32,559 bases of DNA from a virus: IMG/VR virus record IMGVR_UViG_3300010885_038579, positions 1 through 32,559 of that record; one strand, written 5' to 3'. How positions within the stretch are numbered: the stretch's first letter is position 1; every line of letters starts with the position of its first letter. A program made the position numbers and the translations under genes. The notes beneath the pieces were generated by a model. That model worked only from the letters and a program-made list of their open reading frames with translations, made no database searches and was not told the origin of the DNA. This document shows positions 266 through 27,217 of this stretch, piece by piece.

Positions 266-343
266 TGGTGGGCCCAGCAGGACTTGAACCTGCAACCAGA
301 CCGTTATGAGCGGCCTGCTCTAACCAAATTGAGCTACAGGCCC
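266..343 (-). tRNA. tRNA with CAT anticodon, probably tRNA-Ile2 (lysidine type)
   Basis: The minus strand folds into a complete cloverleaf: 7-bp acceptor stem starting GGGCCTG, D arm GCTC/GAGC, anticodon stem GGCCG/CGGTC with loop CTCATAA, T stem GCAGG/CCTGC with loop TTCAAGT, discriminator A and an encoded CCA. The anticodon is CAT, which can mean elongator Met, initiator Met or Ile2. The acceptor has C4:G69 and C5:G68 pairs, known recognition elements of the lysidine synthetase TilS, and the AGAGCAGGC...CTCATAA...TTCAAGTCC stretches resemble bacterial Ile2 genes more than elongator Met. Initiator Met is unlikely because position 1 pairs as G:C. The 5' end is five bases after the stop codon of the leftward exported-protein gene, so the tRNA is probably cut from that transcript. 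Confidence 0.93.
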
Positions 344-9736: not shown

Positions 9737-9886
9737 ATGATGACCAGGAAAAAGCTATATCGGTCGTGGTCGTGGTCGGGGTCGTGGTCGGGGGCGGGGT
9801 CGTGGCCGGGGTCGGGGTCGGGCGCGCGGTCGTGGCCGGGGTCGCGGTCGGGGGCGTGGTCGCGGTCGTGGTCGGGGTCGGCATGA
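9737..9886 (+). CDS. Ser/Trp/Gly-rich microprotein made of hexanucleotide repeats
   Basis: The protein has 49 residues. It starts with a basic stretch (MMTRKKLYR) and then consists almost only of Ser, Trp, Gly, Arg, Ala and Pro in a two-residue rhythm (SWSWSGSWSG and so on). AGGAG at 9725-9729 stands seven bases before the ATG, directly after the previous gene, and the stop overlaps the ATG of the next gene (ATGA at 9883-9886). These signals make translation likely despite the odd composition. A fold is unlikely; the Trp/Arg/Ser/Gly content suits a disordered or membrane- or nucleic-acid-binding peptide. Another reading is that the region is a simple-repeat expansion and the ORF only a carrier for coupling. 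Confidence 0.5.
   Translation: MMTRKKLYRSWSWSGSWSGAGSWPGSGSGARSWPGSRSGAWSRSWSGSA
9764..9880 (+). repeat. Degenerate hexanucleotide tandem repeat (TCGTGG/TCGGGG)
   Basis: About 19 units of a six-base repeat, mostly TCGTGG and TCGGGG with a few CCGGGG, GCGGGG, TCGCGG and GCGTGG variants, fill 117 bases with hardly a break. The tract is G-rich on the plus strand. Because six is a multiple of three, gain or loss of units keeps the reading frame of the microprotein. Confidence 0.9.
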
Positions 9887-10243: not shown

Positions 10244-10529
10244 GGCGGAGATAGAGAAGCATTTTGTGTGGTCCGTAGAGCGCATGGGGGGCAAGACGTG
10301 GAAGTTCACGTCGCCCGGCAGGCGCGGCGTAGCAGACCGTATCGCGTGCTTTCCAAACGGCGACACTTGGTTTGTCGAATTGAAGACGTTGGGTGGAAGG
10401 TTCTCGGCGCTTCAAGATATGTTTGCCATGGATATGCTTCGTTTGAACCAGCTCTATATTTGTCTCAGCACGAAAGAAGAGGTTGATATATTCATGTCTG
10501 GCTTTCAACCCCCACGCTATGACGCTTAG
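10236..10529 (+). CDS. VRR-NUC domain nuclease
   Basis: The protein has 97 residues and starts at MREAEIEKHF, with GGAG before the ATG at 10236. It is the short stand-alone form of the VRR-NUC (PD-(D/E)XK) fold: helix with Glu (REAEIEKHF), 'SPGRRGVADRI' containing the catalytic Asp, then 'TWFVELKT' with the Glu and Lys of ExK, then 'GRFSALQ'. VRR-NUC enzymes act on flaps or Holliday junctions. It is directly followed, with an 11-base overlap, by the SNF2-type helicase, a pair that recurs in many phages and points to a joint role in processing branched DNA. Confidence 0.9.
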   Translation: MREAEIEKHFVWSVERMGGKTWKFTSPGRRGVADRIACFPNGDTWFVELKTLGGRFSALQDMFAMDMLRLNQLYICLSTKEEVDIFMSGFQPPRYDA

Positions 10530-11841
10530 ACCTTACCAAGAAGACGCTGCGGATTTTCTCTATTCGCAAAAGCGGGCGATGATCCTCGCGCCCGTTGGTG
10601 CGGGCAAGACGGCTATTGCTTTACTCGCGATGAGGGATGCACTGCGCGACGGCGTGGTCAAACGATTCCTCGTCGTGGCCCCTAAACGGGTGGCGGAGTC
10701 GGTATGGCCCAAGGAGGCCGCGCTCTGGACGCCGCGCCTGCGTATTGCGATAGCCGTCGGCACGCCCAAACAACGAGCGGCCGCGTTTGCGTCGGACGCA
10801 AAGATCGTTGTGACCAATTACGATAACCTTCAGACATTGCCGCATATGCACTTCGACGGCGTGGTCTTTGACGAACTAACCCGACTGAAGAACCCGTCCG
10901 GCGCGCGCTTTAAGGCTCTGCTCAAACAATTAGACTGCAACGTCCGGTGGGGTCTGACCGGTTCTTTCACAAGTAACGGGCTGGAGGATGTGTTCGGCCA
11001 GTGCAAGATCATCGATCAGACCCTTCTGGGCCGCAGCAAAGGTGCTTTTCAGCAGCAGTATTTCACGCTCGTCAACCCGGAGTTTGGTCAGTGGGAGCCC
11101 CGCAAGGGTAGTCTCGAACAAGTAATGGCCCGCATCAAGGCGTCCACGTTCTTGCTGGAGCCGGGCGAGTACAAGGATAAGCTACCACCGCTGCATGTTG
11201 TGCGGTTGAAATGTGCCATGCCGATGGAAGCATACAAGGAAATGAAAAAAGAGTTCGTGCTCCAGTTTCCTGGTGAGGTCGCTATCGCGGCCAACGCTGG
11301 GGTTGTGACGAGCAAACTGCAACAGATGGCCAGCGGGTTCGTCTACATAACCAACACCACTCCTTCCAACACTCCCGGTAAGTTTATCACAACGCAGACT
11401 TCGCGTTGGCTTAATCATTGCAAGCTCGACCTTCTGGACAATCTTCTAACCGAGAACCAACACGCCAATACGATCATCGCGTACCAGTACCGCGAGGAGC
11501 TGGCCGAGCTGCAACGGCGGTATCCACGAGCGGAGACCTTGGATGCGCCGAATGTAATTGACCGCTGGAACGCGGGAGAGATTGAGCTTCTGTTGGTGCA
11601 CCCTAAGTCGGCGGGTCACGGGCTGAACTTGCAATTCGGCGGGTGCAGAATTGTGTTCTTCGCGCTGCCGTGGTCGTTGGAGTTGTACGAACAAACCATT
11701 GGCCGCCTGCACCGTTCAGGTCAACGGCACGATGTGTGGTGTTATGTGCTGACTACCGAGGGTACTGTAGACGAGCAGATCTGGGCCGCGTTAAAGGATA
11801 AAAGATCTATTTCGAATGTAGCTTTAGAGGCGTTACGATGA
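10519..11841 (+). CDS. SF2 helicase/translocase, SNF2-like
   Basis: The protein has 440 residues and starts at MTLRPYQ; this Q-motif-like start is the usual one, and the longer frame to 10483 has no better ribosome site. Motif I is APVGAGKTAIA (Lys30), Ia is VVAPKRV, II is VVFDELTRLKN (Asp118, with DELT in place of DEAH), III is GLTGSFTSN, and VI is QTIGRLHRSGQ (Arg396, Arg399). The sequence is compact with two RecA-like lobes and no extra domain. It would translocate on duplex DNA and probably helps replication or recombination together with the adjacent VRR-NUC nuclease. The next gene's ATG overlaps its stop by four bases. Confidence 0.92.
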   Translation: MTLRPYQEDAADFLYSQKRAMILAPVGAGKTAIALLAMRDALRDGVVKRFLVVAPKRVAESVWPKEAALWTPRLRIAIAVGTPKQRAAAFASDAKIVVTNYDNLQTLPHMHFDGVVFDELTRLKNPSGARFKALLKQLDCNVRWGLTGSFTSNGLEDVFGQCKIIDQTLLGRSKGAFQQQYFTLVNPEFGQWEPRKGSLEQVMARIKASTFLLEPGEYKDKLPPLHVVRLKCAMPMEAYKEMKKEFVLQFPGEVAIAANAGVVTSKLQQMASGFVYITNTTPSNTPGKFITTQTSRWLNHCKLDLLDNLLTENQHANTIIAYQYREELAELQRRYPRAETLDAPNVIDRWNAGEIELLLVHPKSAGHGLNLQFGGCRIVFFALPWSLELYEQTIGRLHRSGQRHDVWCYVLTTEGTVDEQIWAALKDKRSISNVALEALR

Positions 11842-13419: not shown

Positions 13420-14022
13420 TTACTTCGCGGGGACAACAGCGGCCGGAATCGGTGTAATGGCCGATTGCAGCATGTCCAACATCTTCATCAGACCTTCTGG
13501 CGGGCCGTCATCGCGGGCCAGAACGCGGACATCGTACTTAGCGGAGTTGTCTGACGCGCGTGTAGATGCGCTGTGTGACGCGACGCTGCCGTGTAGGTTG
13601 ATCTTCATCGAGAAGATCCCGTAATTCATCTTGGCTTCACCGTCCATAGTGGCCGACGAATCCGACGAAGTTGAGCTGCTATCGGACGAAGACACCGACA
13701 TCGTGAAGTTGACCTCGGCCTCCTTGATCGAGAGGTTCGGAGTGTTGACGATAGCCAACAGCGGAACCTTCAGATCTACAGTCTCTACCGTTACCTTACC
13801 GGTGGTGGGGTCCGGGGCACTCGCGCGGTCAAAACTAAAGTCAACCGTCAGAGCTTCCAGTCCGTCAGCGGTTTTCTTCATACCGACGTTCTGAATGAAG
13901 TTTGCCGTCGCTGCGGCTAGCAGCGTCTGCGCGTCGCAGGCTGCCTGAAACGGGCCGCCAATCAGGTCGGCCATCGGCAGGCCGGTGAATTGTCCGCTTA
14001 TGCTAATCAGATTATCGGCCAT
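13420..14022 (-). CDS. DUF2589-type protein, larger copy
   Basis: The protein has 200 residues, with AAGGAG before the ATG. The pattern 'LPMADLIGGPFQAACDAQTLLAAATANFIQNVG' at the N terminus, then beta-type segments with 'LKVPLLAIVNTPNLSIKEAEVNFTMSV' and an acidic serine run (SSSDSSSTSSDSS, about 111 to 123), is that of DUF2589 proteins known from bacteria and phages without a proven role. The serine run sits in the middle of the beta part, like a flexible loop. The next gene upstream (14040-14480) encodes a shorter relative, so the two may form a hetero-complex. Both follow the giant virion protein gene at the end of the late block. Confidence 0.75.
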   Translation of the reverse strand: MADNLISISGQFTGLPMADLIGGPFQAACDAQTLLAAATANFIQNVGMKKTADGLEALTVDFSFDRASAPDPTTGKVTVETVDLKVPLLAIVNTPNLSIKEAEVNFTMSVSSSDSSSTSSDSSATMDGEAKMNYGIFSMKINLHGSVASHSASTRASDNSAKYDVRVLARDDGPPEGLMKMLDMLQSAITPIPAAVVPAK

Positions 14023-14039: not shown

Positions 14040-14480
14040 TTAACGGGGGAAAGATTTTAAAATTTTATCGTTCAGCAGCATAACGCCTTCGTGCGCGTCT
14101 CCGCCTTTGAAGGTGATCGACACTTTTGCGGTAGGGTTCCGCGACAACAGACCTCGGGGCATAGCCGCCATCAAAGAGTCGTCGGGCTTATCCAGACCGC
14201 GCAGCTCTACATCAAACTCTACCTTCATTGTATCTACCGCCAGAGAGTGATGCTTGGTTAAGGCAAACAACGGAAGTTCAAAAGGTTGTTGCGTCATCTG
14301 ACCTTGGTCTACATGCGGTAGAGTCACGCGAACAGTCTTCGGCGCGTAGGTGCCGTCGTCTGCTTGAGTGAAGTACCGGTCGCGAAGAGACGTCCACGAG
14401 GCGTTCTCGACCGCTGCCGCAGCATCAACGACAGCTTGATGGACCGCTTCGAATACAGCTTTCAGAGAGAAGGAGGACAT
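14040..14480 (-). CDS. DUF2589-like protein, smaller copy
   Basis: The protein has 146 residues. It shows the same order of elements as its neighbour: an Ala-rich helix (AVFEAVHQAVVDAAAAVENA), then 'FELPLFALTKHHSLAVDTMKVEFDVEL', which matches the 'VPLLAIVNTPNLSIKEAEVNFTMSV' block of the gene at 13420-14022 in pattern, then a beta-type C terminus with 'KVSITFKGGDAHEGVMLLND'. It lacks the serine run. Its ATG is two bases after the stop of the giant gene and no clear ribosome site is seen, so it probably depends on re-initiation. Paralogy with the neighbour is an inference from pattern, not from a computed alignment. Confidence 0.65.
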   Translation of the reverse strand: MSSFSLKAVFEAVHQAVVDAAAAVENASWTSLRDRYFTQADDGTYAPKTVRVTLPHVDQGQMTQQPFELPLFALTKHHSLAVDTMKVEFDVELRGLDKPDDSLMAAMPRGLLSRNPTAKVSITFKGGDAHEGVMLLNDKILKSFPR

Positions 14481-14482
14481 TA

Positions 14483-17400
14483 TTAGGGTGCCAGATCACG
14501 CAAGAATTTCTGTTGAGCTGTTGGTGCCTCATACGGAGCGACGAGGGCATTCAACCGTTGCATCTGCCGAAGTATGAGGGCGTCTGTCTTCACGGTATCG
14601 TTACCCGGTTTTTCTTTTAGCTTTCTGAAATCCGCTATCTGTCTCTTAATCACGTTAACAGCCGGAATAAGTCGAGTTTCCGGATTGTCTTTCTTAAACG
14701 CGGCGGAGGACACGCGGTCTTTCAACATACCTTTGACGTTGTTTTCCAACTCGTTGAGCGTTTTTACGTTTTCAAAGTACCGGGCCTTATCACTGGCCGC
14801 CGAGCCCACATTCCCATAAAACCGGCCAACCACCGGTATTTTATACGTCGGTACTTCTTCACCCTTTAGCCAACCCTCTACCGACGATTCGAGGTGGATG
14901 AGTTCGCGTCCGGGGCCGCCCGTGAGTTGTCCGGCGACATAATCGAGCATGTCGGGCGTCGGGCTCCAGCCTCCGGGCGTGTACTTATCACCGCCGGTCA
15001 AGGTATTTATCGCGCGGGCTACGATCTTACCCACAAAGGTGGCGTTATCTTTGGCGCGGGTGAACCCGGGTGTTAGGTCCAGCGCACTGAAATCTTCGCG
15101 TTCGATTGGTTTACCGGTCCAGTCAGTATTGCTAGCAATCGCCGCCAACGGATCTAACGCCGTAGGCGTAATGGTTTGCAACGTCACTCCGGAACCAAAC
15201 GGGTTGAAAGTTGAGAGCGCGGCGTCAAATACGGAGAATACGTTCTTGCCAATGTTCTGCGGATGAAGGGCCGTCTGCATGGCCAGACGCCCAATATTGG
15301 GCAGAAGGTTAAAACTCAAAGGCATCGGGAACGACACATACTTCCCACTGCCAATAGGCATGATGAAGTTGCGTTGTCTCACAAACTCCGGCGGATCGTC
15401 ATCATCAAACCCGGCCATAGCCAGAAAGACCGCCTGTATTGCGCCCAACAAAAGGCCGCCCGCGATTATCTTCTTACCGGCGGGGCCCGCCAGCGTCTCA
15501 AGAGTCCGCACCGTGCCTTGCACGGAGGGGTTAAAGAACGCGTACAGAGCCCCGATCTGGCTCGACTTCTGTCCCTTACGGTCGAAGTTCACCGTCAGAT
15601 TTTTGGCTAGGCTTGCCGCTTGCGCGTCGGACATTCCGGACTCTACGGCGGTAATGAATGCCGCTAGGCGGGTCGAGTTCTCCATCGCGGTGTTGTAATC
15701 CGATAGCCAACCACCTAGGGCGGGCAGGATCTTTTTTGCAGTACCGTTAGACATACTATCGAGTTCGGCTTGTAAGGCTTTACCCCGATCAGCGGAATTT
15801 TCAAAAGACTGACGCCACCCGGAAGTGCCACCAGCATTTCGAAGGCGTTCAAAGTAGAGGTCATACGGGGTGGCCGCTGAAGCGCCCTTAGCCCGCTGCG
15901 TTCTCGCGCCTTTGTAGATTGCCGCGAGTGCCGGAAAGACGTGCTTCAAAACCGTAAATTGTTTTCCGGCAATGGGTGTTGTGGAAAGATTAAGCAACGC
16001 TGTCGGCACGTCGCGCGTAAGATTGATAAGGCCGAATACAGGGTTGTACTGCGTGTTAAGAGCCGCGAAGTACCGTGTGATCTGGGCGGCGGCACCAACT
16101 AGCCCATCCAAAGACGGCAAGTCTAGGTTCTTTAGCGCGGCCACCATCCGCATAGCTTGCGGGTCACTCTCATTGAACGCTACGCCTTGGGCGACCATCT
16201 TGCCGTTTTTGTCCAAACGGATACTCATAAGGACGTTATCGTCCTTTTGGTAGCTCATATCCAATACGTTCACAGGTTCTCCGGTCTCGACGTCTATCGC
16301 AGACGTGATTCCTGGTGCTGCAAGCGACCACATATCGGAGGGGAAGGTTTTGGCCAAAGCGTAGATCGCACGCGCGATTATGTTCTTCTCGCCGCGCATG
16401 ATGGCGCGGTCTCTCTGGTGAACAATGTTAGCCAGCACATCGACTACGGGAAGCTTAGACCCTTTTCGGTGGAACGTATTCGGGCCTCGAACGGAAACAC
16501 CTTGGCCTGAACCCGCGCCGATATTCTTACCTTCGCGGTTGAACGGCACATAGTACGGCTGCTCGCGTTCCATCTTGAGGACATCGTCGAGTGTCGCCAT
16601 ACCGTAGCGAACCCACTCACGCCGCGTCTTCGCGGTTATGGCATCCACACGTTTGGCCAAAGCCTCAAACGCCGTCCGCTGCTTGGGTGTCAACGCCGCT
16701 AGGTATGCTTGCGCGTCCGTTGTCGATACCCCCGCACCGTCTAAATTGGGGAATTTCGTATCGGGTTGCGCCGCGATAATAGCGTTGGCATCAGGAGCCG
16801 CGCGCATCCACAGGTAATTGCCGAGTTCATCTACACTGACACCGCGCATCTTCATATCCTCCAAGAGCGGTCCAAGCTCGCGGAGGGTAAAGTCTTCTAC
16901 TCTCTTAGCCACTTTAGAGGTAAGGCGTTCCACCATGCTGTACGCGTCTAAAGTTTCCGGCAATTTGGCAACGCGGGCTCTGATGGACTTCATCAGGTTC
17001 TTAAGATCTACGAACCTGTCCACAAGATTGTATGTTAGCCGGTCTTTTTCTTTTTCTACGCGGGTGCTTGGCACAGGAAGCGAAGGTCCGGGTTGGCCTT
17101 GGACAGCATTAAAGGTATTGCCCTCACTGAGCATGTTCGGGCTCTGGCGCTCGCCTTCATTTGCGGCGTTGAGTACGTTGTCCAACCCACGAATAACCGC
17201 AGCGTTGCTGGGGAAGTTGAAGAGTTCCTGAATCTTAGCCTTGAACTCTCTGAGCCACTGCACCGCGCGCTGAACCCAAGACTCGCTGGCGCGTGCGGCC
17301 ACGATATCGGCAGCGTTAACCGCCCAGAACTCAGAAGGGTTTATGTACTGGTAGAAGTCTTGCGATAGCGTTCCGTTCCGTATGCCGTCCGCAACGCGGT

Positions 17401-20400
17401 TGTAGGCGGCGGTATCACCTGCTGCCGCAGCCAATGCGTCGCGGATATGTTCAACCATTTCCGTGTCTTTTGTTCTGATGGCGGCGTCTAGCATACCTGT
17501 GATTTGAGAGAGCCATTCCGCGCGAATGCCAGCCTGTATGTCCTCGGGCATCATGCGTTCCGCGTGATGCAGAATCTCGTGCGCGATCAGCGTATCTTGG
17601 CCGCGCCCTTTGAAGAGGGTCATAATGCGCGACATCGGATTATAGTTGCCCGAAGCGTCGTTAGACCTTGCGGCTCTAAGGGATATGCCCAGATCGTTTG
17701 CAAGATTAGGGTTGTTGTTTAACAGCCACATACCCAGCCGAACCTGCTCGCGGTTCATCTGGCCCAGACGTGCGGCGCGCAGAAGACGCTCCTGTATCCA
17801 ATCGTATCCCCGCGACCGTTCGCGTACAGGTCTGTTAGCGGCCTGCACCCTAAGATCACGCGCGAGCGCCACGACGCCGTTCTTCAACGCTACGGGGTCT
17901 GTTTCGTCTTCTAGTTTGTTCAGACGAACCGTAGTCTGAACCGCGTTGTACGGTATGCTCTCGACTACTTTCTTTCGCGCGCGAGTTTTTCCATCAGAGC
18001 TTTCACGTTCTTCGCCGCCGCGTCGGCCTGGGCGTCCGACATCTCCGGTTGATCCGGGTCGGGGTCCGTCAGCCACGGAGCCCAGTTGTCCTTCGGCCCG
18101 CCGTCTGTCATAGAGTTTTTTGAGTTCAATGGCGTAATCGACATTTATACCCTCGCTATCTCGTCCACCAAGTTTGCTATACAGCTCTTTTTCCGGATAC
18201 CACCAAACGGCTTGTAAGTCGGCAGGCGTTATGGTTACCCCGTCTGCCTTCAGCTTTTGCCGGGCTTGAGCAACAACAGATCTTATCCACTCTCTTTGAG
18301 CGCCGCTTGACGGGGTTTCTTTTAGACCGGCCAGACCAAAAATAATACGTTCGGCGGAGTAAGTAAGCTCTGACTTTACCCGCTCTCCGCTGTCGTACTT
18401 ATCGCGGTTTTCGCGGTAGTCAGACTCATGCTGTTTTACGACGCCTCGGGCTAACTTTATAAGGGCGGGCAGCGTTTCAGGAACAGGTCTTTCGGTGGTT
18501 TTTAGAGCGGCCTCAAATCTTACGCGTTGTTTAGTGCGTGAGGCCTGCGTCCCACCAACAAGATTTCCGGTTAACCTACCCCAACCGCGCATGAACCACA
18601 GGTCCATCGTGACGGGCGTAAAATTGTTGTTGAGGTTCTGGTAAAACCCTTGGCCTATCTTAGGGCCTAGAATTGCCGAACCGTAAACTTTGGTCTGTTT
18701 ATTCTCGCCGCCGACCTTATAACCCGCATCGTTAAGTTGCTTTACGGTGAACTCCGAGAATAAAAACTCGTTGGTCCCGTCCAACCCCAAGTTAGCGATC
18801 AGTTTGTTTAGGAGGCGGAAATTTCCGTTTATGCTTTTCTGCTTCTTAGCCAAAACATTGGTTGGGAAAACACCGGTCTTTTTGAAACTGGCGTAAACTT
18901 GTTCGGCCAACCTTACGTTAGACGCTACGGTCTCACCTTGGCTCGTTACCGCGAGCGCAAGCGTGAAAGCCATCTTCTGGTTCTTGTCCGCCAGTTCCGG
19001 GTGTAGCTTGAGGGCGGTCTTCATCGCTTCTTTGACGCGCGTTGAATACCAGCCGGACGCGTTCTTTCCCGTGCGGCCGAGTGCGGCCTTAACTTCGGAC
19101 GCGATAGCGGAAGAGAGTATATCGTCTGTTTTGGGGTTTGGGCCTTGGATGACGCCGGTTGTAACACCCAGTTTTTTGAGCGCCGCGCGCCCCCTAAACA
19201 TAAGTTCCGTAGCGATTGCGGGCACAGTTCTAGAGCGGGCTTTAACGGCGGGATAACTTTCACGGAGGATTGCGTTTACCGTGAGAGCCTCTAGGTCTCG
19301 CCCGCGAAGGAACGCCGGGGCGCTATCGGTCACAACATAAGAACCATCAGCCAACAGAGCGCCTCGGGCTTTGCTGATGAGGGCTAATGCTTCTGCGTTC
19401 GTCTTGCCTTCCATCGCGTCGGCGAGCTTGGTCAGCCCGATCTGACGGATGATATTCTGCACAACGGCGATGAACTTATCCAACCCGCGAATAGTGACGT
19501 TCTCGCTCGACATAATAGCCAGAGCTTCATCGATAGCCCGCATACGCACATACTGTGCGGCCCGCTCTGGTGTCCGGCCCAAACGTATTGCGTCGGCTTC
19601 CAAATCCGCGCCAAACGACTTAGTCCATTTCGCAGCCTCTTCGCGGACCCTCGGGTTCCGCGCCGCGATAGTGACAAGGGCCGCGTTGAATTTTTTGGAA
19701 CCGGACTTGTACAAACGATCCAGACCCGCGTGCAGGATCTCATGCCAGACCGTTATCTGGGCATCAACCGCATTCGTTATATTCTCCGCGAAGAGATGTA
19801 TTTTGCCTTGGGCGTACATCCCCTTAGCGCCCACGGGAATGTCTACGCCCGTCTCGGCCCGCGCTTCTTCTACGGTGCCGTATATCTCGGTGCCGATCTG
19901 CAATTTGTCTAAGGCGCTGATGACCGCCGCTTCAACTTCGAGAGTCGTGATAGAACCGCCGGGTGCAGTGCCGATTAAGAATTTCTCGGTCTGGGCCTTA
20001 ATACGTTCTACCGCGTCTTTGTCGCCAATATGCTTCAAGTTTGGAGTGTTCTTCGGTGTATTGCCAAACACCTTTCCCCCAACGGCTTGCAGCGACAAGG
20101 CTTGCGCGCTCTCGTCGTACAGGATGAGGGCACCACCCACCGTCGTCACGCTGTTGGCTTGCGTGTCTTTGTCCACGGTGAGGTCACCACCCACCGTCGT
20201 CAGACTGTTGGCTTGCGCGTCTTTGTACAGGAGGAGGTCACCCCCCACCGTCGTCACATTGTTGGCTTGCGCGCCTTCGCTTAGGAGGAGGTTACCCCCC
20301 ACCGTCGTCACGCTGTTGGCTTGCGCGCCTTCGAGCAGGGCGAGGTTACCCCCCACCGTCGTCACACTGTTGGCTTGCGCGCCTCTGTGCAGTTCGAGGT

Positions 20401-23400
20401 CACCCCCCACCGTCGTCACGCTGTTGGCTTGCGCGCCTACGAGCAGGGTGAGGTCACCCCCCACCGTCGTCAGGTTGTTGGCTTCCGCGTTTTCGTGCAT
20501 GTAGAGCCCACCCCCTACCGTCGTCAGGCTGTTGGCTTGCACGAATCTGTGCAGGACAACGCGGCCACCCACCGTCGTCAGGTTGTTGACTTGCACGCCT
20601 ACATCTACTTGAAGGTCACCGCTCACCGTTGTCAGGTTGTTAGCCTGCACGCCATAGGACATGTAGAGGTTACCGATAACTTCTACAACCCTATTGGCGT
20701 ACTGGGCCGGTAGGTATGACCATGGACCCTCCGTTAGAAGGACAAGGTCACCATTGGCCTTTTCGTATACGCGGATGCTGGCTCCGCCACTGTCAATTTC
20801 CTCGACGAAAGTGGCTTCCGACGCCAGTCTCTTAAGTGCCAGAGACCTATCCGTTGCGTCTTGCAGAGCTTTCTTAGTTCTTGGCGCGAGATTCTGAATC
20901 TTTCCAGAATCAACAAGCGCCTGCACCTCGCCCGCGTACTGAGATGGAATACTGCCGTTATTGGCCCGGCCTTGAATTTCCGCAACGTCCGATCCTTCAA
21001 AGCGTATCGCCAGCTCGGGTTTACCGTTGTCCACATAAACCCAAAAGTCGCCCTGTGCTATGTACGGCGCGGCGTTATATGTTTTAGTGCACCAGCTCTC
21101 GCTACTGATGGCTTGAACCTCGGCAACACGTTCCGCAAAATTTGGATCAGACTTGGCTGTTTGAGGCACCTTACGCCAACCGTTTTGAGCATCCCCAAGC
21201 TCCACCAAATCGGCTGTGGCCGCCATCTTCGCGGCACGGTACGCCTTAGTGAAATTAGGCGCGGTGCCTTCAAGGAACTTACCGTACACCGTCGCAAGAG
21301 CCGCAGCGTTGAAGGTCTCGCCCGTATTGGGTTTCGTCGCATCAAACGTGTTCACAACGCCGTGGGCTACATAGCTCTTCCAGAACGGATCTGAACCTTG
21401 TTCTGTGTTTACATTGTCGAAGTAGTTCTTCCAGCGGGCTATGTTTCCTTCACGAGCCCTCTTTACATCCGCCAATAACGTACCAACCGCGCCGCCTTCG
21501 TCGCCGTTTTTGTACGCTTGAATTGCATCCTGTATGTTCTGAGGAAGCAGCGGGCCTTCTACCGCGATGACACCCTCTAGGTACGCTTTGGCGTCGAAGG
21601 CTGGAAGAGCGTCGAAGGTCTTCGTGTAGTCCGCCTCGGCCGCCGCTTTGGCTTGGGCCAGCGTCTTAACAACACCGAAGTCTATGAGCTTCTTAACTTC
21701 CGCAAATTCTACCCACGCTTTGGCCGTTCCCGTCGCGCCCATCTTGTCGGACTTGACAGAATAACGTACATCACTGATGTCTCTGAACGTCACATTTCGG
21801 GCCAACACTAGCGGCCCAATCTGAATGACCTCATCAGCATGTGCCAGTTGACGTTGCGTTCTGCGGTCGTAGAACCCCTCGTGGCGTTCTGGGTCCATGC
21901 CGACTTGAGTCCAGGCAGGGTCGTTAAGGAACTTTTCCGCCATCGCTTGAATGTCTTCAGCGGAAGTTTTTGTCCAGAAACCATCCATTTTAGCAAACGG
22001 TGATTTTGCGCCGCCGCGCGCTACGCGCAGCGCTTTATCCGAAGAGACACCAAAATCGACGTCGGTGATACGCGCGAAGGGTGCGTGAGCGATAGGCTTG
22101 CTGCCCTCGGCATGACCTTTGTGGATAGTCGGAGCCCACACGTTGTTGTCGGTATACGCCTCGATATCAAGCCGCAACCCAACAGCTTCGCCTTCAGGGA
22201 TGTTTGTCTCTTGGCCAATACGCGCAATCTGGTCCTTACGCAACCCACGCTCTAGATCAAGTTGAGTCGGCATCGCCGGAACAGATGTGAAGGGCCGGAC
22301 AGGTTTATAGATGTCCACTAACCTTTGGTATTCCTCGCGAGACATAAGCCCCGCGTACACCTTATCGGCTGCATCTTGAAGTTCCGGAACACGCCCCTTC
22401 AAAACTCTTCTTGGGAGAGCTACCGCAGCGCCATCTCCACCTTCCGCAGCAGATCCGCCGCGTTCTTGGCTTCGGGTGCTAGTCGTATTGCCGCGCCCAA
22501 CTCCTTCGCGTACCGAGTCTGCCCCATCCCTTCCTGCTCCGCCGGGCCTAGCAGCCCGCTCAGGTAGCCGCTGAAATTTTGTAAGTTCGGCATCGCCGTC
22601 CAAGCGGATTCCACGAGCTGTGAGATTACCATTTGCGTTCCTTTCCATAAAATATTCGGCCACCGCATCGTAGCGTTGCAGTAGCTGATCTACATTCTGT
22701 ACTGCGGTCGCCATATCGCCCGAGACCGCCAACTGCACCGATAATCTAGCAAGTTCCGGGATAAATCCAGTTTCGCTGTGGTTCCGTTCCGCATGGTGCG
22801 TTAGTTCGTGAACCATGGTTCCGACAAATGTGCCAGCCCTGTCGGCGCGCGACACGGTGTCAGGTCTCATCGGGCCGCCCGTTTCCTTATCGCGCACTAC
22901 CAGCGGGTTAAGCATGATGGCTTTGAACGGAATAACCGTGTTGACCCCGTAGTATTCAAGGTCAAAACTAAGCCCGGTAGGAACTTGGGTTACGGATGCG
23001 TATGAAGCTCCCCCTACACGGGCCACGGCCGCGCGCAGCTCTTGCAGCACAACACCAAAATCGCGCAGAAACCCGTTAACGGCATTCGCACCTAACGCTA
23101 GGCGGGCTTCTTCCAGCAGCGGTTTTCCGTCCGTCAGCACGTTGTCGTGAACTAAGATGTCGCGGGGGTCAATTTGACTTTGATCTACGCGGAACTGGGC
23201 CGGGTCACGCCGCATCGCCTTAATGTTTTCTTTGGTCAACGGCGGCGTTAACTTATTGTTAACGTACACGCGGCCGTCGGTTACCGTCACCACATCCGAA
23301 GGATCGATAGAAAGCACTGATCCTACCGCTGCGTCGGGGATGTTGAGGTCGATGCGTTTGAGTACCGACCCCTGCGGGCTTTGCGAGATAAGCGTCAACT

Positions 23401-26400
23401 GACCAAACGATTTGGCGGAATCTTGTTCCGACTTATTTGCGTACAGGACATTTACATAGCTTATCAAGGCCGCCATATCGCTTTTCCCCGACGGGGAGAA
23501 GTCTTTACGGTTTAGCGCGATAGGGTAACGCGGCGAATCCGCTTTAACGTCGGGCTCTAAATTAAGTATGAAGTCGTAGGGAACGGGGTCGCTATACGGC
23601 CTTCCGGGCTCTTTAGATATTCCGAGAGAAAACTGGTTCAAACCTTCCGACAGCACGTTAAAATTGCCGCCCCGGCTTGAGTATTTGTTGGGCCGGACCA
23701 ACAATCGGGCCGTACCCCACGCAAACTTTACCGCTGTCAGAAGAGTAGCGCCGTTAAGTTCGTACCTTGCGCCGACAGGACGTATCTCACCGTTAAATAC
23801 GACATCAATATTCGCGAATAGGGGGCTGGCGTCTATTAGGTCGCGCAGTTCATAATTAGCCGGGAAGTATATATTTTTGACTTCTTCGGTGTCTGTATCC
23901 ACATAGGTCTCTGGAAGGGTAACAACTACCGTAGTTCCCGGCGCGGCGGTTGTGGAACGGGTTTCAATCTGAGGCGCGCGGGTGCTGTCATCGAGAGCCT
24001 CCGCAATCTGTTCGCCCGACGTATCCATCCGATGAATTTTGCCCGCTCGCACCGTCTCCAAACGCAACGCCTTGTTGCCCAGCAAGAAAAGCATTTTGGC
24101 TATGCCAAGGCCACCCGACGCGCGGGCGGTGTCTTTCTCTGTCCCCGCCATGGTCAAGAAAGCCTTGTTGATGGTGTCTAAAGCCATCCCGCCGCCGTCG
24201 TCTACAATGGTAATCGTGCGTGCGGTTCTATCCGTGGTTATGTTGATGTGGCCGAGAGAAATGCTGCCGCGCTCTAGCGCACCCTTGACCGCATCGAAAG
24301 AGTTCTGGAACAATTCCTTAACGGTCACGATGCCGATATCGCTCATGTTACCGTAGAGCTGCGGGCCGAGTAGCTTCGTCATACGTTTTTTGTTTATGTC
24401 CGGCTTTGAAGCGGTGAAAGTCGCTTCACCTTCGGACGCAAGCGCTGCTTTCGCCGCGTCAACCGCTTCGACGACTTGTGCGTCGGCCCCTGCTTTGGCT
24501 TCCGGGTTTAGCAAAACGGATTTAAGATTAACCCGCGACGCCTTAGTGGGCGCTGTGAGGTGCTCAACTGTACGACTTAAAATGCGGCTCGCGATGGATC
24601 CGGGGTCAGCCTGAGACGCCTTCTCTTTCAAGTTTTCGATCTGCGCGTCTAGGTTGATTGGTTGCGGAGCGGCTGTTTGGGCTACGGGCGCAGCGTCTTC
24701 AGTCGCGGCGCGCTGTTCTCCTGCGTGTGTCCATCCCGCTACATAAGCCGCATTCCACTCCGGGCTTTCTTTGTCCATCTCCCGCGCCGTGGTGAAGGGC
24801 GCAAGACCCAAGAACTCGTTCACAGCGCTCATAAACGCTGGTTGGAACTCCGCCGGAATTTCCGCGACTTTAGTCTCCGCCGTGTCGAGAACTCTTGCCG
24901 CGAGTTCCGTATCTCCAGCGAGTTCAAATTCTTTGGGCGGTGCAAAAGCTGCGGGCGTATCCGCCGCGCGCTCGGGTGCGAAGACAAATTCACGCGGTTG
25001 AGGCGAACCTGCGGGCGTCTCGGCAGGCGCTACGGTCTCGCCAAGGGCGACGGGCGCAATGGTCGCACCCGGGTCTTCGGCCTGAAGAATATCGAGAAGC
25101 GGAGACCCGGAGGTGTACTTGCGATTGGCATCGTCGGACAAGTCCGTGACGTTGCCGTCTTCTTCGATAGCCTGAAGGCGGCTATTAATGTTATCAAACC
25201 GGACGGAAACTGGCGCATCGTTTACCGTGAAGTTGCCCAATACCGTAAGGTCGCTTTCCACAGCGCCGTTTGAGCCCACTTCAATCGTATTGACCGTATT
25301 GTCGTCGTTCGTCTTTGTAAGACGCGTGCGATATTCAGAACCGCTTGGGACTTCCTTGTACCCTTCGGCGATACGGTCCGGCACAGTTACCGGATTGGAT
25401 ACCGTACCGGCCGCTAAAGTTGCCGCAGCGGCAAAGTCCTCTATGGTTTCATTAATATTTGTAATGCGTTTAACAATAGGTGCGGGGCCCTGGGAACCGT
25501 TTAGGGCGTCAGCTTTCTTCTTAGCAAGCGTGGCTTCCGTCTCGGCGGCCGACGGCGCAACTTCTCTCTCGGCAGGCGTTGGCTTCGCAGCAGCAGCAAG
25601 TTTGGCTTCAATAGCCGCCGTCCTTGCGCGGCTCTCCGAAAATAAGGCTGCCTTATCAAGCGGCTGATCCGGCTCGGGCGCGTTCGGTTCGGCGGGCGTG
25701 GTGAGCTGTTCGGGGCTGAGATCCACAGCCAGCTTCTGCTGAATGGCCAACCCGGCGTTGCGGGCCCATACGTTAGAAGCCCAATTATTCCCGGCGTCTT
25801 TACGCGCGTTGCTGCGGGCCTCTTGCCGTTCTGCGTTCTTCTGCCCGTCGGACTTGCTGTTGTCCGAAGATATATCTTCGAGCTTTGTCTGAAGGTCCGT
25901 ATCGTTCTTTTCGTCAAATGCGGTCAAGTCCGCATGTACGCGTACCGCTGCGCGGTAGCGTTCGTTCTCGGGAGCGTCTGCATTCGCAAGCGGAGCGTTC
26001 TCTTGCGCGCGTTTATAGTTCGCGTGTATTCCAAACGGCGCGAGCAATACGCTCATAGCCAATGCGGCTTCGCCACCCTCTAAGCCTACAACCCAAGGAC
26101 TCTGAGGGTTCTTGGCCCCGTAGGCATTCTCGACGGCGGTCTCTCCGGCCCCTTGGCCAAATTCCGTAAGCGCCTCTTCACCGGCACCAACAACAAGAGC
26201 TTTAGCCGCAGGCCGCAACACCGCCGTTGAAGTGGCTCTACCGAGTATTGCGGCCGCTGTGTTCTTTACGAAGGGGCTAACGACGCCCTTGAGTAGACCG
26301 CGTGTGGCCATACCACCAATGGACTCGCCGCCCGCTTCAATCGCACCCGACAGCCAACCGGCTTTCTTAGCGTCTTCTTCCGAGACGCCGTCGGCCCGTA

Positions 26401-27217
26401 GCTTTTCGTAAGTGTCTTCGGCTTGAGATCCACCAAATAAACCTATGGTGGTTAGTTCTCGCGTGCCGATACCAATGAGGGCGGAGAGCCCCACACCTGC
26501 GCCTAGTTCCACGGCCCCAAACGCGGCCGCCGTAGCAACCGCGACGGAAGCCATCGACGGTGCCAGCATTCGAGCACCCTGAGAAAACACGCGGCCAACA
26601 CCAGTTCGGCCCTCAAGTTGCGGGGCTAGCCACGGGTGCTCGATTTCTTCTGACTTAGCCCAATCACGCAACCCCTTACCGGAACCGGGGTTCACCCAAT
26701 CGGCCGCCTTCCCTATCATGTCGGGAACATCGACAACGAGCCCCGCAAAAGCCTGCACCGCTATCTCGGAAAGTATATTGCGCGGCTCTTCGGGTTCCGC
26801 GAGCAGGTCTTTCGGCGCGGGTTGCGCGAGCATATCTTTCGGCGCAGGGGCTGCGCCGCCCGCCGGAACGTAGGTATCGCCATCCCAACTTCCCGGTTTT
26901 CCGTACGCGGCGTATTTAGACTGATCGGAGAATGTCGGGTGGTTCGGCTTCTTGAACGTATCCGGCCAATGACCGGTCTCGGGGTCGGGTTTAACACCCG
27001 CCAAAAACGCGCCGTGAAGGTCGTAATCCGCGCCGGAGTCTTTGGGTGCGTTCGCGGCTTTCCAAGCCTGAAACGCTGGTTCCTGATCGGGGGGTATTCG
27101 AGTTTCGAACGCGACCTGCGGTGTGTAGTAAATCTCAAAAGCCGCCAGAGCGGCGTCCGCGTCGGGCGCGTCTACATTGAAGGCCGCGTTATCTTTTTCA
27201 AGCCTGAAAAGCGGCAT
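14483..27217 (-). CDS. Giant polyvalent virion-associated protein with GHKL ATPase and three zincin-like motifs
   Basis: One open frame of 4,244 residues. Elements in order: a GHWPDTFKKPNHPTFSD motif typical of phage virion proteins (about 82 to 98); a hydrophobic, Ala/Gly-rich membrane-type region (about 200 to 400); an acid-rich linker; a GHKL ATPase with N box KELFQNSFDA (Glu968, Asn972), DDGGGM (1006 to 1011) and GGLGIAKM (1035 to 1042); zincin-like HELTH (1470); a conserved block with FYDRRTQ...ADEVIQIGPLVLA (about 1780); an ESWCT domain (Trp2042); ten 18-residue repeats (2190 to 2370); a second HEILH (2492); a block with TMDLWFMRGWGR (about 2870); a third HEILHH (3213); and a C-terminal region with YNPVFGLINLTRD (3724), resembling large polyvalent-protein domains such as LPD38. 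Its ATG overlaps the stop of the virion-type gene upstream. It is probably packaged and ejected into the host. Individual activities are untested inferences. Confidence 0.85.
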   Translation of the reverse strand: MPLFRLEKDNAAFNVDAPDADAALAAFEIYYTPQVAFETRIPPDQEPAFQAWKAANAPKDSGADYDLHGAFLAGVKPDPETGHWPDTFKKPNHPTFSDQSKYAAYGKPGSWDGDTYVPAGGAAPAPKDMLAQPAPKDLLAEPEEPRNILSEIAVQAFAGLVVDVPDMIGKAADWVNPGSGKGLRDWAKSEEIEHPWLAPQLEGRTGVGRVFSQGARMLAPSMASVAVATAAAFGAVELGAGVGLSALIGIGTRELTTIGLFGGSQAEDTYEKLRADGVSEEDAKKAGWLSGAIEAGGESIGGMATRGLLKGVVSPFVKNTAAAILGRATSTAVLRPAAKALVVGAGEEALTEFGQGAGETAVENAYGAKNPQSPWVVGLEGGEAALAMSVLLAPFGIHANYKRAQENAPLANADAPENERYRAAVRVHADLTAFDEKNDTDLQTKLEDISSDNSKSDGQKNAERQEARSNARKDAGNNWASNVWARNAGLAIQQKLAVDLSPEQLTTPAEPNAPEPDQPLDKAALFSESRARTAAIEAKLAAAAKPTPAEREVAPSAAETEATLAKKKADALNGSQGPAPIVKRITNINETIEDFAAAATLAAGTVSNPVTVPDRIAEGYKEVPSGSEYRTRLTKTNDDNTVNTIEVGSNGAVESDLTVLGNFTVNDAPVSVRFDNINSRLQAIEEDGNVTDLSDDANRKYTSGSPLLDILQAEDPGATIAPVALGETVAPAETPAGSPQPREFVFAPERAADTPAAFAPPKEFELAGDTELAARVLDTAETKVAEIPAEFQPAFMSAVNEFLGLAPFTTAREMDKESPEWNAAYVAGWTHAGEQRAATEDAAPVAQTAAPQPINLDAQIENLKEKASQADPGSIASRILSRTVEHLTAPTKASRVNLKSVLLNPEAKAGADAQVVEAVDAAKAALASEGEATFTASKPDINKKRMTKLLGPQLYGNMSDIGIVTVKELFQNSFDAVKGALERGSISLGHINITTDRTARTITIVDDGGGMALDTINKAFLTMAGTEKDTARASGGLGIAKMLFLLGNKALRLETVRAGKIHRMDTSGEQIAEALDDSTRAPQIETRSTTAAPGTTVVVTLPETYVDTDTEEVKNIYFPANYELRDLIDASPLFANIDVVFNGEIRPVGARYELNGATLLTAVKFAWGTARLLVRPNKYSSRGGNFNVLSEGLNQFSLGISKEPGRPYSDPVPYDFILNLEPDVKADSPRYPIALNRKDFSPSGKSDMAALISYVNVLYANKSEQDSAKSFGQLTLISQSPQGSVLKRIDLNIPDAAVGSVLSIDPSDVVTVTDGRVYVNNKLTPPLTKENIKAMRRDPAQFRVDQSQIDPRDILVHDNVLTDGKPLLEEARLALGANAVNGFLRDFGVVLQELRAAVARVGGASYASVTQVPTGLSFDLEYYGVNTVIPFKAIMLNPLVVRDKETGGPMRPDTVSRADRAGTFVGTMVHELTHHAERNHSETGFIPELARLSVQLAVSGDMATAVQNVDQLLQRYDAVAEYFMERNANGNLTARGIRLDGDAELTKFQRLPERAARPGGAGRDGADSVREGVGRGNTTSTRSQERGGSAAEGGDGAAVALPRRVLKGRVPELQDAADKVYAGLMSREEYQRLVDIYKPVRPFTSVPAMPTQLDLERGLRKDQIARIGQETNIPEGEAVGLRLDIEAYTDNNVWAPTIHKGHAEGSKPIAHAPFARITDVDFGVSSDKALRVARGGAKSPFAKMDGFWTKTSAEDIQAMAEKFLNDPAWTQVGMDPERHEGFYDRRTQRQLAHADEVIQIGPLVLARNVTFRDISDVRYSVKSDKMGATGTAKAWVEFAEVKKLIDFGVVKTLAQAKAAAEADYTKTFDALPAFDAKAYLEGVIAVEGPLLPQNIQDAIQAYKNGDEGGAVGTLLADVKRAREGNIARWKNYFDNVNTEQGSDPFWKSYVAHGVVNTFDATKPNTGETFNAAALATVYGKFLEGTAPNFTKAYRAAKMAATADLVELGDAQNGWRKVPQTAKSDPNFAERVAEVQAISSESWCTKTYNAAPYIAQGDFWVYVDNGKPELAIRFEGSDVAEIQGRANNGSIPSQYAGEVQALVDSGKIQNLAPRTKKALQDATDRSLALKRLASEATFVEEIDSGGASIRVYEKANGDLVLLTEGPWSYLPAQYANRVVEVIGNLYMSYGVQANNLTTVSGDLQVDVGVQVNNLTTVGGRVVLHRFVQANSLTTVGGGLYMHENAEANNLTTVGGDLTLLVGAQANSVTTVGGDLELHRGAQANSVTTVGGNLALLEGAQANSVTTVGGNLLLSEGAQANNVTTVGGDLLLYKDAQANSLTTVGGDLTVDKDTQANSVTTVGGALILYDESAQALSLQAVGGKVFGNTPKNTPNLKHIGDKDAVERIKAQTEKFLIGTAPGGSITTLEVEAAVISALDKLQIGTEIYGTVEEARAETGVDIPVGAKGMYAQGKIHLFAENITNAVDAQITVWHEILHAGLDRLYKSGSKKFNAALVTIAARNPRVREEAAKWTKSFGADLEADAIRLGRTPERAAQYVRMRAIDEALAIMSSENVTIRGLDKFIAVVQNIIRQIGLTKLADAMEGKTNAEALALISKARGALLADGSYVVTDSAPAFLRGRDLEALTVNAILRESYPAVKARSRTVPAIATELMFRGRAALKKLGVTTGVIQGPNPKTDDILSSAIASEVKAALGRTGKNASGWYSTRVKEAMKTALKLHPELADKNQKMAFTLALAVTSQGETVASNVRLAEQVYASFKKTGVFPTNVLAKKQKSINGNFRLLNKLIANLGLDGTNEFLFSEFTVKQLNDAGYKVGGENKQTKVYGSAILGPKIGQGFYQNLNNNFTPVTMDLWFMRGWGRLTGNLVGGTQASRTKQRVRFEAALKTTERPVPETLPALIKLARGVVKQHESDYRENRDKYDSGERVKSELTYSAERIIFGLAGLKETPSSGAQREWIRSVVAQARQKLKADGVTITPADLQAVWWYPEKELYSKLGGRDSEGINVDYAIELKKLYDRRRAEGQLGSVADGPRPGSTGDVGRPGRRGGEERESSDGKTRARKKVVESIPYNAVQTTVRLNKLEDETDPVALKNGVVALARDLRVQAANRPVRERSRGYDWIQERLLRAARLGQMNREQVRLGMWLLNNNPNLANDLGISLRAARSNDASGNYNPMSRIMTLFKGRGQDTLIAHEILHHAERMMPEDIQAGIRAEWLSQITGMLDAAIRTKDTEMVEHIRDALAAAAGDTAAYNRVADGIRNGTLSQDFYQYINPSEFWAVNAADIVAARASESWVQRAVQWLREFKAKIQELFNFPSNAAVIRGLDNVLNAANEGERQSPNMLSEGNTFNAVQGQPGPSLPVPSTRVEKEKDRLTYNLVDRFVDLKNLMKSIRARVAKLPETLDAYSMVERLTSKVAKRVEDFTLRELGPLLEDMKMRGVSVDELGNYLWMRAAPDANAIIAAQPDTKFPNLDGAGVSTTDAQAYLAALTPKQRTAFEALAKRVDAITAKTRREWVRYGMATLDDVLKMEREQPYYVPFNREGKNIGAGSGQGVSVRGPNTFHRKGSKLPVVDVLANIVHQRDRAIMRGEKNIIARAIYALAKTFPSDMWSLAAPGITSAIDVETGEPVNVLDMSYQKDDNVLMSIRLDKNGKMVAQGVAFNESDPQAMRMVAALKNLDLPSLDGLVGAAAQITRYFAALNTQYNPVFGLINLTRDVPTALLNLSTTPIAGKQFTVLKHVFPALAAIYKGARTQRAKGASAATPYDLYFERLRNAGGTSGWRQSFENSADRGKALQAELDSMSNGTAKKILPALGGWLSDYNTAMENSTRLAAFITAVESGMSDAQAASLAKNLTVNFDRKGQKSSQIGALYAFFNPSVQGTVRTLETLAGPAGKKIIAGGLLLGAIQAVFLAMAGFDDDDPPEFVRQRNFIMPIGSGKYVSFPMPLSFNLLPNIGRLAMQTALHPQNIGKNVFSVFDAALSTFNPFGSGVTLQTITPTALDPLAAIASNTDWTGKPIEREDFSALDLTPGFTRAKDNATFVGKIVARAINTLTGGDKYTPGGWSPTPDMLDYVAGQLTGGPGRELIHLESSVEGWLKGEEVPTYKIPVVGRFYGNVGSAASDKARYFENVKTLNELENNVKGMLKDRVSSAAFKKDNPETRLIPAVNVIKRQIADFRKLKEKPGNDTVKTDALILRQMQRLNALVAPYEAPTAQQKFLRDLAP
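20054..20650 (-). repeat. Ten 54-base tandem repeats inside the giant gene, plus a degenerate eleventh
   Basis: Each unit encodes 18 residues on the pattern (A/V)QAN(S/N)(L/V)TTVGG(D/N)LxLxxx. The first begins at 20650 and the tenth at 20164, exactly nine times 54 bases apart. The TTVGG core is invariant in nine units and TTVSG in the first; residues 13 to 18 vary. The tenth unit has one extra residue, and an eroded eleventh follows to about 20054. The pattern resembles leucine-rich-repeat-like solenoids with 'LTxVGGxLxL' units. Confidence 0.95.

Follow-up and report, generated by a model that had tools for sequence, protein, structure and literature searches.

A GHKL ATPase domain in a giant viral protein

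The window analysed here is the whole of the 32,559-base virus record IMGVR_UViG_3300010885_038579 (positions 1 to 32,559), and the question that it raises is what an ATPase domain of the Hsp90 type is doing inside a viral protein of 4244 amino acids. The preliminary description of this DNA had recognized the motifs of a GHKL ATPase and had placed them in a virion protein. The features that bear on this assignment are as follows.

14483..27217, minus strand: ORF of the giant polyvalent protein, 4244 aa (ORF and translation; LPD38 at 1.6e-35)
14828..15400, minus strand: LPD38 domain, residues 3940-4130 (Pfam, 1.6e-35)
23891..24397, minus strand: GHKL (Hsp90-type) ATPase domain, residues ~941-1109 (Pfam HATPase_c_3, HtpG profile, hhalign, AF2/Foldseek)
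24290..24319, minus strand: N-box KELFQNSFDA, residues 967-976 (E968, N972, D975; invariant in 23/23 and 39/39 sequences of the two sets described below)
24185..24202, minus strand: G1 box DDGGGM, residues 1006-1011 (D1006, G1010; motif scan, conserved in both sets)
24092..24115, minus strand: G2 box GGLGIAKM, residues 1035-1042 (ATP lid, K1041; motif scan, conserved in both sets)
23912..23938, minus strand: G3 strand GTTVVVTLP, residues 1094-1102 (G1094, T1095; motif scan, conserved in both sets)

The N-box, G1, G2 and G3 of the giant ORF are present in GHKL order and at exactly the residues first reported, with the G3 strand falling just outside the span 24020-24400 that had been given for the domain. 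The Pfam profile HATPase_c_3 scores 25.4-25.6 bits on the excised module, against a Pfam cut-off of 25, and 28.6 bits in a six-frame search of the genome; on the whole 4244-aa protein it reaches only 22.2 bits, below the cut-off. It matches 23/23 members of the family described below (best 2e-15). Among profile matches HtpG is the best: a profile built from 23 sequences (A3) matched the N-terminal domain of E. coli HtpG at 5.3e-12 among PDB chains, and hhalign of the family against an HtpG alignment gave 9.3e-15. The AlphaFold model (pLDDT 83, pTM 0.75) has the GHKL (Bergerat) fold; Foldseek retrieved TRAP1/Hsp90 with it at E 2e-14, structural realignment gave Z 17 to GyrB and TRAP1, and the fold search also returned the GHKL relatives GyrB and MORC. 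Residues ~941-1109 are thus confirmed as a GHKL domain, and their sequence is of the Hsp90 type. The catalytic Glu968 is preserved throughout both sets, and hydrolysis of ATP is predicted on that basis.

The middle domain and the predicted zinc protease

Downstream of the ATPase in the same chain are two further domains and a linker.

23345..23893, minus strand: transducer-like middle domain, residues ~1109-1291 (AF2 model; TRAP1 structural alignment)
23507..23527, minus strand: YPIALNR motif with Arg1237 (invariant 23/23; compare LPLNVSRE of HtpG and PSRE of RIIA)
22586..23263, minus strand: Wss1/WLM-like zincin domain, residues ~1319-1544 (AF2; Wss1 top match at Z 7.5 and profile E 1e-3; WLM in 8/23)
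22778..22810, minus strand: zinc motif HELTHHAERNH (H1470, E1471, H1474, H1480; invariant 23/23; HExxH 41/41, third His 38/41)
22406..22585, minus strand: Gly/Arg/Ser-rich linker 3′ of the protease (composition)

Arg1237 stands in the context YPxxxxR, which is YPIALNR in the window and YPFENSRERF in many relatives; LPLNVSREIL of HtpG and PSRE or PNRE of RIIA likewise come after their respective GHKL domains. The Arg of the corresponding loop in Hsp90 touches the gamma-phosphate of ATP. The structural alignment with TRAP1 (VIA) covers model residues 13-417, and hhalign of the middle domain against the Hsp90 middle domain is non-significant (E 0.31). The Arg1237 region thus appears to resemble the Hsp90 Arg loop at the level of the motif, with support from the modelled structure.

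For the protease domain, a sequence profile ranks Wss1p first (E 1e-3). The AlphaFold model of the domain (pLDDT 84), when realigned to the candidates from Foldseek, has the Wss1 structures as its top matches (Z 7.5, 2.7 A over 108 residues), the next non-Wss1 chain being at Z 5.0; Foldseek's own ranking of the protease domain alone against the PDB was noise with no significant match. Pfam WLM matches 8/23 family members and has no match to the window copy, and the third His, six residues beyond the second, is kept in 23/23 and 38/41 sequences. The assignment to Wss1 is favored because two different methods, sequence profile and structure, agree on it, and the window protease is probably WLM-like. 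The linker behind it is among the lowest ~1% of the giant protein in hydrophobic residues and the highest ~1% in Gly, and a similar stretch follows the protease in most members.

Coupling of the ATPase to the protease

Single-sequence searches with the window module (INPHARED tblastn and scans of viral contigs) gave nothing new, and the family surfaced only with a two-sequence profile (A2) made from the window and L002, to which the giant protein is most closely related. This profile found 27 viral loci, mostly aligned from the ATPase to HExxH. Every copy found with it lies inside a large ORF (901-5219 aa, stop to stop) and has HExxH 419-574 residues past the catalytic Glu. Residues invariant in 23/23 sequences are K967, E968, Q971, N972, S973, F974, D975, A976, D1006, G1010, K1028, G1035, G1036, G1038, A1040, K1041, G1094 and R1237 in the GHKL and middle parts, and G1415, G1424, N1437, P1438, H1470, E1471, H1474 and H1480 in the protease part; QNSFDAV and VKE were part of the search patterns, so the columns of these motifs are biased and the remaining columns unbiased.

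The reverse test used protease-only patterns (NPFY[DE][WF]G and [FY][HL]NNT[NS]VD), which collected 51 loci, mostly of one clade and hence fewer than 51 independent events; the protease alignment A5 was too divergent as a query, and the closer subset A7 was used. At 50/51 of these loci a GHKL domain is present in the same ORF, and the exception starts inside the protease at a contig end. Among the distinct aligned rows of the protease-collected set, E968, N972, D975, D1006, G1010 and K1041 are present in 39/39 and HExxH in 41/41. Both searches combined yield 66 distinct uncultured viral contigs in which ATPase and protease are joined, all but one tail-end fragment having been checked directly. 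Whole modules are 20-32% identical to that of the window, yet both halves and the catalytic residues of each are retained. Supported from both search directions, the coupling of GHKL domain to protease is near-absolute and looks obligate; a conserved composite of ~600 residues has the ATPase as its first half and ends in a predicted Wss1-like metalloprotease.

Genomic setting and probable virion packaging

The protein that carries the module is giant and multidomain and has LPD38 (1.6e-35), which fits a polyvalent protein of the phage type; LPD38 is listed as phage-only among such proteins (PMC5512222). The pair of adenine methylase and SNF2 helicase by which DarB is recognized has no Pfam or PHROG match within the giant ORF, the SNF2 gene of the window being a separate gene (10483-11841). 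Motif scans give second and third HExxH sites in the ORF, each a probable further zincin, so that this one chain probably contains three.

19727-19744, minus strand: second HExxH, HEILHA (residue 2492; HExxH itself at 19730..19744)
17564-17581, minus strand: third HExxH, HEILHH (residue 3213; HExxH itself at 17567..17581)

Elsewhere in the ORF, an 18-residue repeat, QANSVTTVGGDLxLxxGA, occurs in ~9-10 copies at residues ~2185-2375 (20099-20668, minus strand) and is probably a beta-solenoid, and residues 2635-3095 (~17933-19315, minus strand) are strongly conserved with no Pfam match (~35% identity in L004, L008 and L011). Directly downstream of the giant gene are two adjacent DUF2589 genes (13420-14022 and 14040-14480, minus strand). 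The window also contains a tRNA-Met (cat) gene at its edge (266-343, minus strand) and a GGTCGG-type tandem repeat of 12/18/30 bases at 9762-9881.

In the relatives, module-bearing ORFs contain LPD38 (8/17) and ART-PolyVal (4/17), and further domains among them are SLT, ddrB-ParB, LPD1, LPD5, LPD39, InPase, MutS_I and RadC. Genes near the module ORF in relatives match families of internal virion proteins, transglycosylases, DNA ejection proteins and virion structural proteins, while the window's own neighbor genes had no informative match. The C-terminal region of the window protein with LPD38 is homologous to the Burkholderia 'DarB-like' giants of Bcep22-type podophages (BcepIL02, 3e-35). Its 4515-aa homologue in JC1, gp69, was found in purified virions by mass spectrometry with 51 unique peptides, as the second-best scoring protein (PMC9144972). 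By this analogy the claim that the ATPase belongs to a virion protein is well supported for the class of giant proteins; for the window copy, packaging and injection are presumed from its homologues.

Probable cassette exchange, and distribution

The C-terminus of L002 is 77% identical to that of the window protein, and its GHKL stretch has 25-31% identity and is collinear through the downstream HExxH. In the module tree, the window groups with L015/L017/L016 (support 98/97) and L002 with the L020-L035 group (88/99), to which it has ~50% identity. The two giants are mosaics in which the C-terminus and residues 2635-3095 are 77-78% identical and other cassettes have been exchanged (ddrB-ParB and ART in L002, repeats in the window). 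The window and L002 have most of the conserved segments of the giant in common, yet their modules belong to different clades; this is most simply read as a swap of the module as a cassette, as would be expected of effectors. At L036 6876-15150 the giant is apparently broken into three ORFs (899, 812 and 970 aa), and the 812-aa ORF is the GHKL-protease module, which indicates that the module can stand alone.

The LPD38 relatives L003-L011, several of which are fragments, gave no HATPase match. The full-length module was absent from 50,697 phage records (INPHARED; seven query modules, from the window and six relatives) and from 72,556 plasmid records (two query modules); the phage and plasmid matches are at the GHKL level only, mostly RIIA, HtpG (HSP90 family) and ATP-binding proteins. 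A search of bacterial contigs gave one match, on a phage-like MAG contig, and among 200 genomes of that contig's phylum the full module occurs solely on this seeding contig; the others match the ATPase domain only, and nine such matches examined are HtpG. In BFVD a single entry matches over the full length, with 38% identity in 641 columns. So far, the ATPase-protease module is found almost only in uncultured viruses.

Proposed function and alternatives

The preliminary description, which had missed the protease half, considered the ATPase as a chaperone for the giant protein itself, a DNA clamp or a decoy. None of these is supported as stated, since the ATPase fronts a composite with a Wss1-like metalloprotease, and the likely role shifts to an ATP-run protease. 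With moderate confidence, the module is interpreted as an injected ATP-operated protease, one effector cassette of a virion-packed giant that would be delivered with the DNA and whose proteolysis would be controlled by ATP. Proteolysis itself, its control by ATP and its targets are inferred; ATP control is suggested because an intact ATPase and an intact zinc site stay coupled through deep divergence and cassette exchange. Since the capsid is without an ATP supply, a switch of the Hsp90 type would rest there and could become active after entry into the cytoplasm. When it meets the ATP of the host cell, the GHKL domain would close and probably dimerize, as GHKL enzymes do, and the transducer Arg might sense the gamma-phosphate, with the resulting movement opening or positioning the protease. 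The protease might then cut proteins of the host, or it might cut its own giant and thereby free other cassettes, and the Gly-rich stretch behind it could be a flexible tether. Only tentatively, the module might represent an undescribed enzyme class, in which an Hsp90-type ATPase switches a zinc protease on the same chain. Such an enzyme would be delivered from the virion with cytoplasmic ATP as the signal of arrival, and might be clamped on incoming DNA and strip host proteins from it.

Four alternatives were weighed against the injected protease. It is unlikely that the module is a maturation protease of the producer cell, processing the giant polyprotein or capsid-internal proteins at assembly and being packaged as a spent passenger. 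MPTase domains of polyvalent proteins have been proposed to process them, but the MPTase-containing N4 virion RNA polymerase is packaged unprocessed (PMC5512222). The Gly-rich linker behind the protease and the two additional HExxH sites of the giant ORF would suit maturation, although further HExxH motifs occur in some relatives only. For simple self-cleavage, moreover, the ATPase seems superfluous.

Also unlikely, and ranked next, is a DNA-bound protease, in which the GHKL part would clamp on incoming phage DNA while the Wss1-like part removed host proteins (restriction enzymes, nucleoid proteins, crosslinks), much as Wss1 and SPRTN remove proteins from cellular DNA. In its favor, the protease is most like Wss1, GyrB and MORC were returned by the fold search, and the companion cassettes ddrB-ParB and MutS_I act on DNA. 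Against it, the module yielded no DNA-binding element, and its GHKL part is Hsp90-type by sequence rather than gyrase/MutL-type. An Hsp90-like chaperone that refolds or holds the giant after tail passage, with the zincin as an independent neighbor, is improbable: HtpG is the closest relative by profile, but its matches stop at the ATPase domain, the protease stands where an Hsp90 C-terminal dimerization domain would be and no such domain was matched, and the near-absolute coupling would be unexpected of independent neighbors. Very improbable is a decoy or an RIIA-like counter-defense factor. Among isolated phages, RIIA has the GHKL domain closest to that of the module (tblastn and fold matches are mostly RIIA, adjoining rIIB where examined). 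It mostly scores below HtpG with the family profile, however, the four RIIA-type proteins checked have no HExxH, and no rIIB partner is seen in the window. A decoy, moreover, would need no catalytic residues, yet these are conserved in every copy.

If the injected ATP-operated protease is real, it would make proteolysis energy-dependent with no AAA+ motor, and phages would license an injected effector by host ATP. The module is compact, occurs naturally in a stand-alone version (L036) and has clear catalytic residues in its ATPase as well as its protease half, which makes ATP control directly testable; for the 66 uncultured viral contigs it offers a concrete hypothesis on what their largest proteins do.

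Comparison with known systems

Among the papers searched, none was seen to join GHKL with a zincin or WLM domain in one protein, and each known system shares a part of the module or its setting. The polyvalent proteins (Iyer et al. 2017) and the DarB-like giants of the Bcep22 type are likewise giant and multidomain with LPD38 and zincins, with ART and ParB companions in relatives of the window and a virion-packaged homologue in JC1; in the window's giant, no methylase-helicase pair was found. Phage polyvalent proteins with metallopeptidases are already known; the survey by Iyer et al. mentions in its main text neither a GHKL or Hsp90 domain nor one of gyrase or histidine kinase. RIIA of the T4 type is also a phage-borne GHKL ATPase followed by a PSRE/NRE motif, but it is a stand-alone gene beside rIIB and mostly scores more weakly; the module is inside the giant ORF, and neither Pfam nor PHROGs matched the window's larger neighboring genes to rIIB. 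With Wss1/WLM proteins the module shares HExxHxxxxxH within the pattern TMxHElxHxxxxxHdxxF and the structural match over 108 residues, but its protease is only 17% identical and is joined to a GHKL ATPase in a giant phage protein. The best profile match is to HtpG/Hsp90, which has the same GHKL fold, the same N-box, G1, G2 and G3 and an SRE-like Arg motif in the next domain; the profile and hhalign matches run along full-length HtpG as far as ~185, no Hsp90 C-terminal domain was found, and the module continues into a zinc protease, within a phage protein of 4244 aa.
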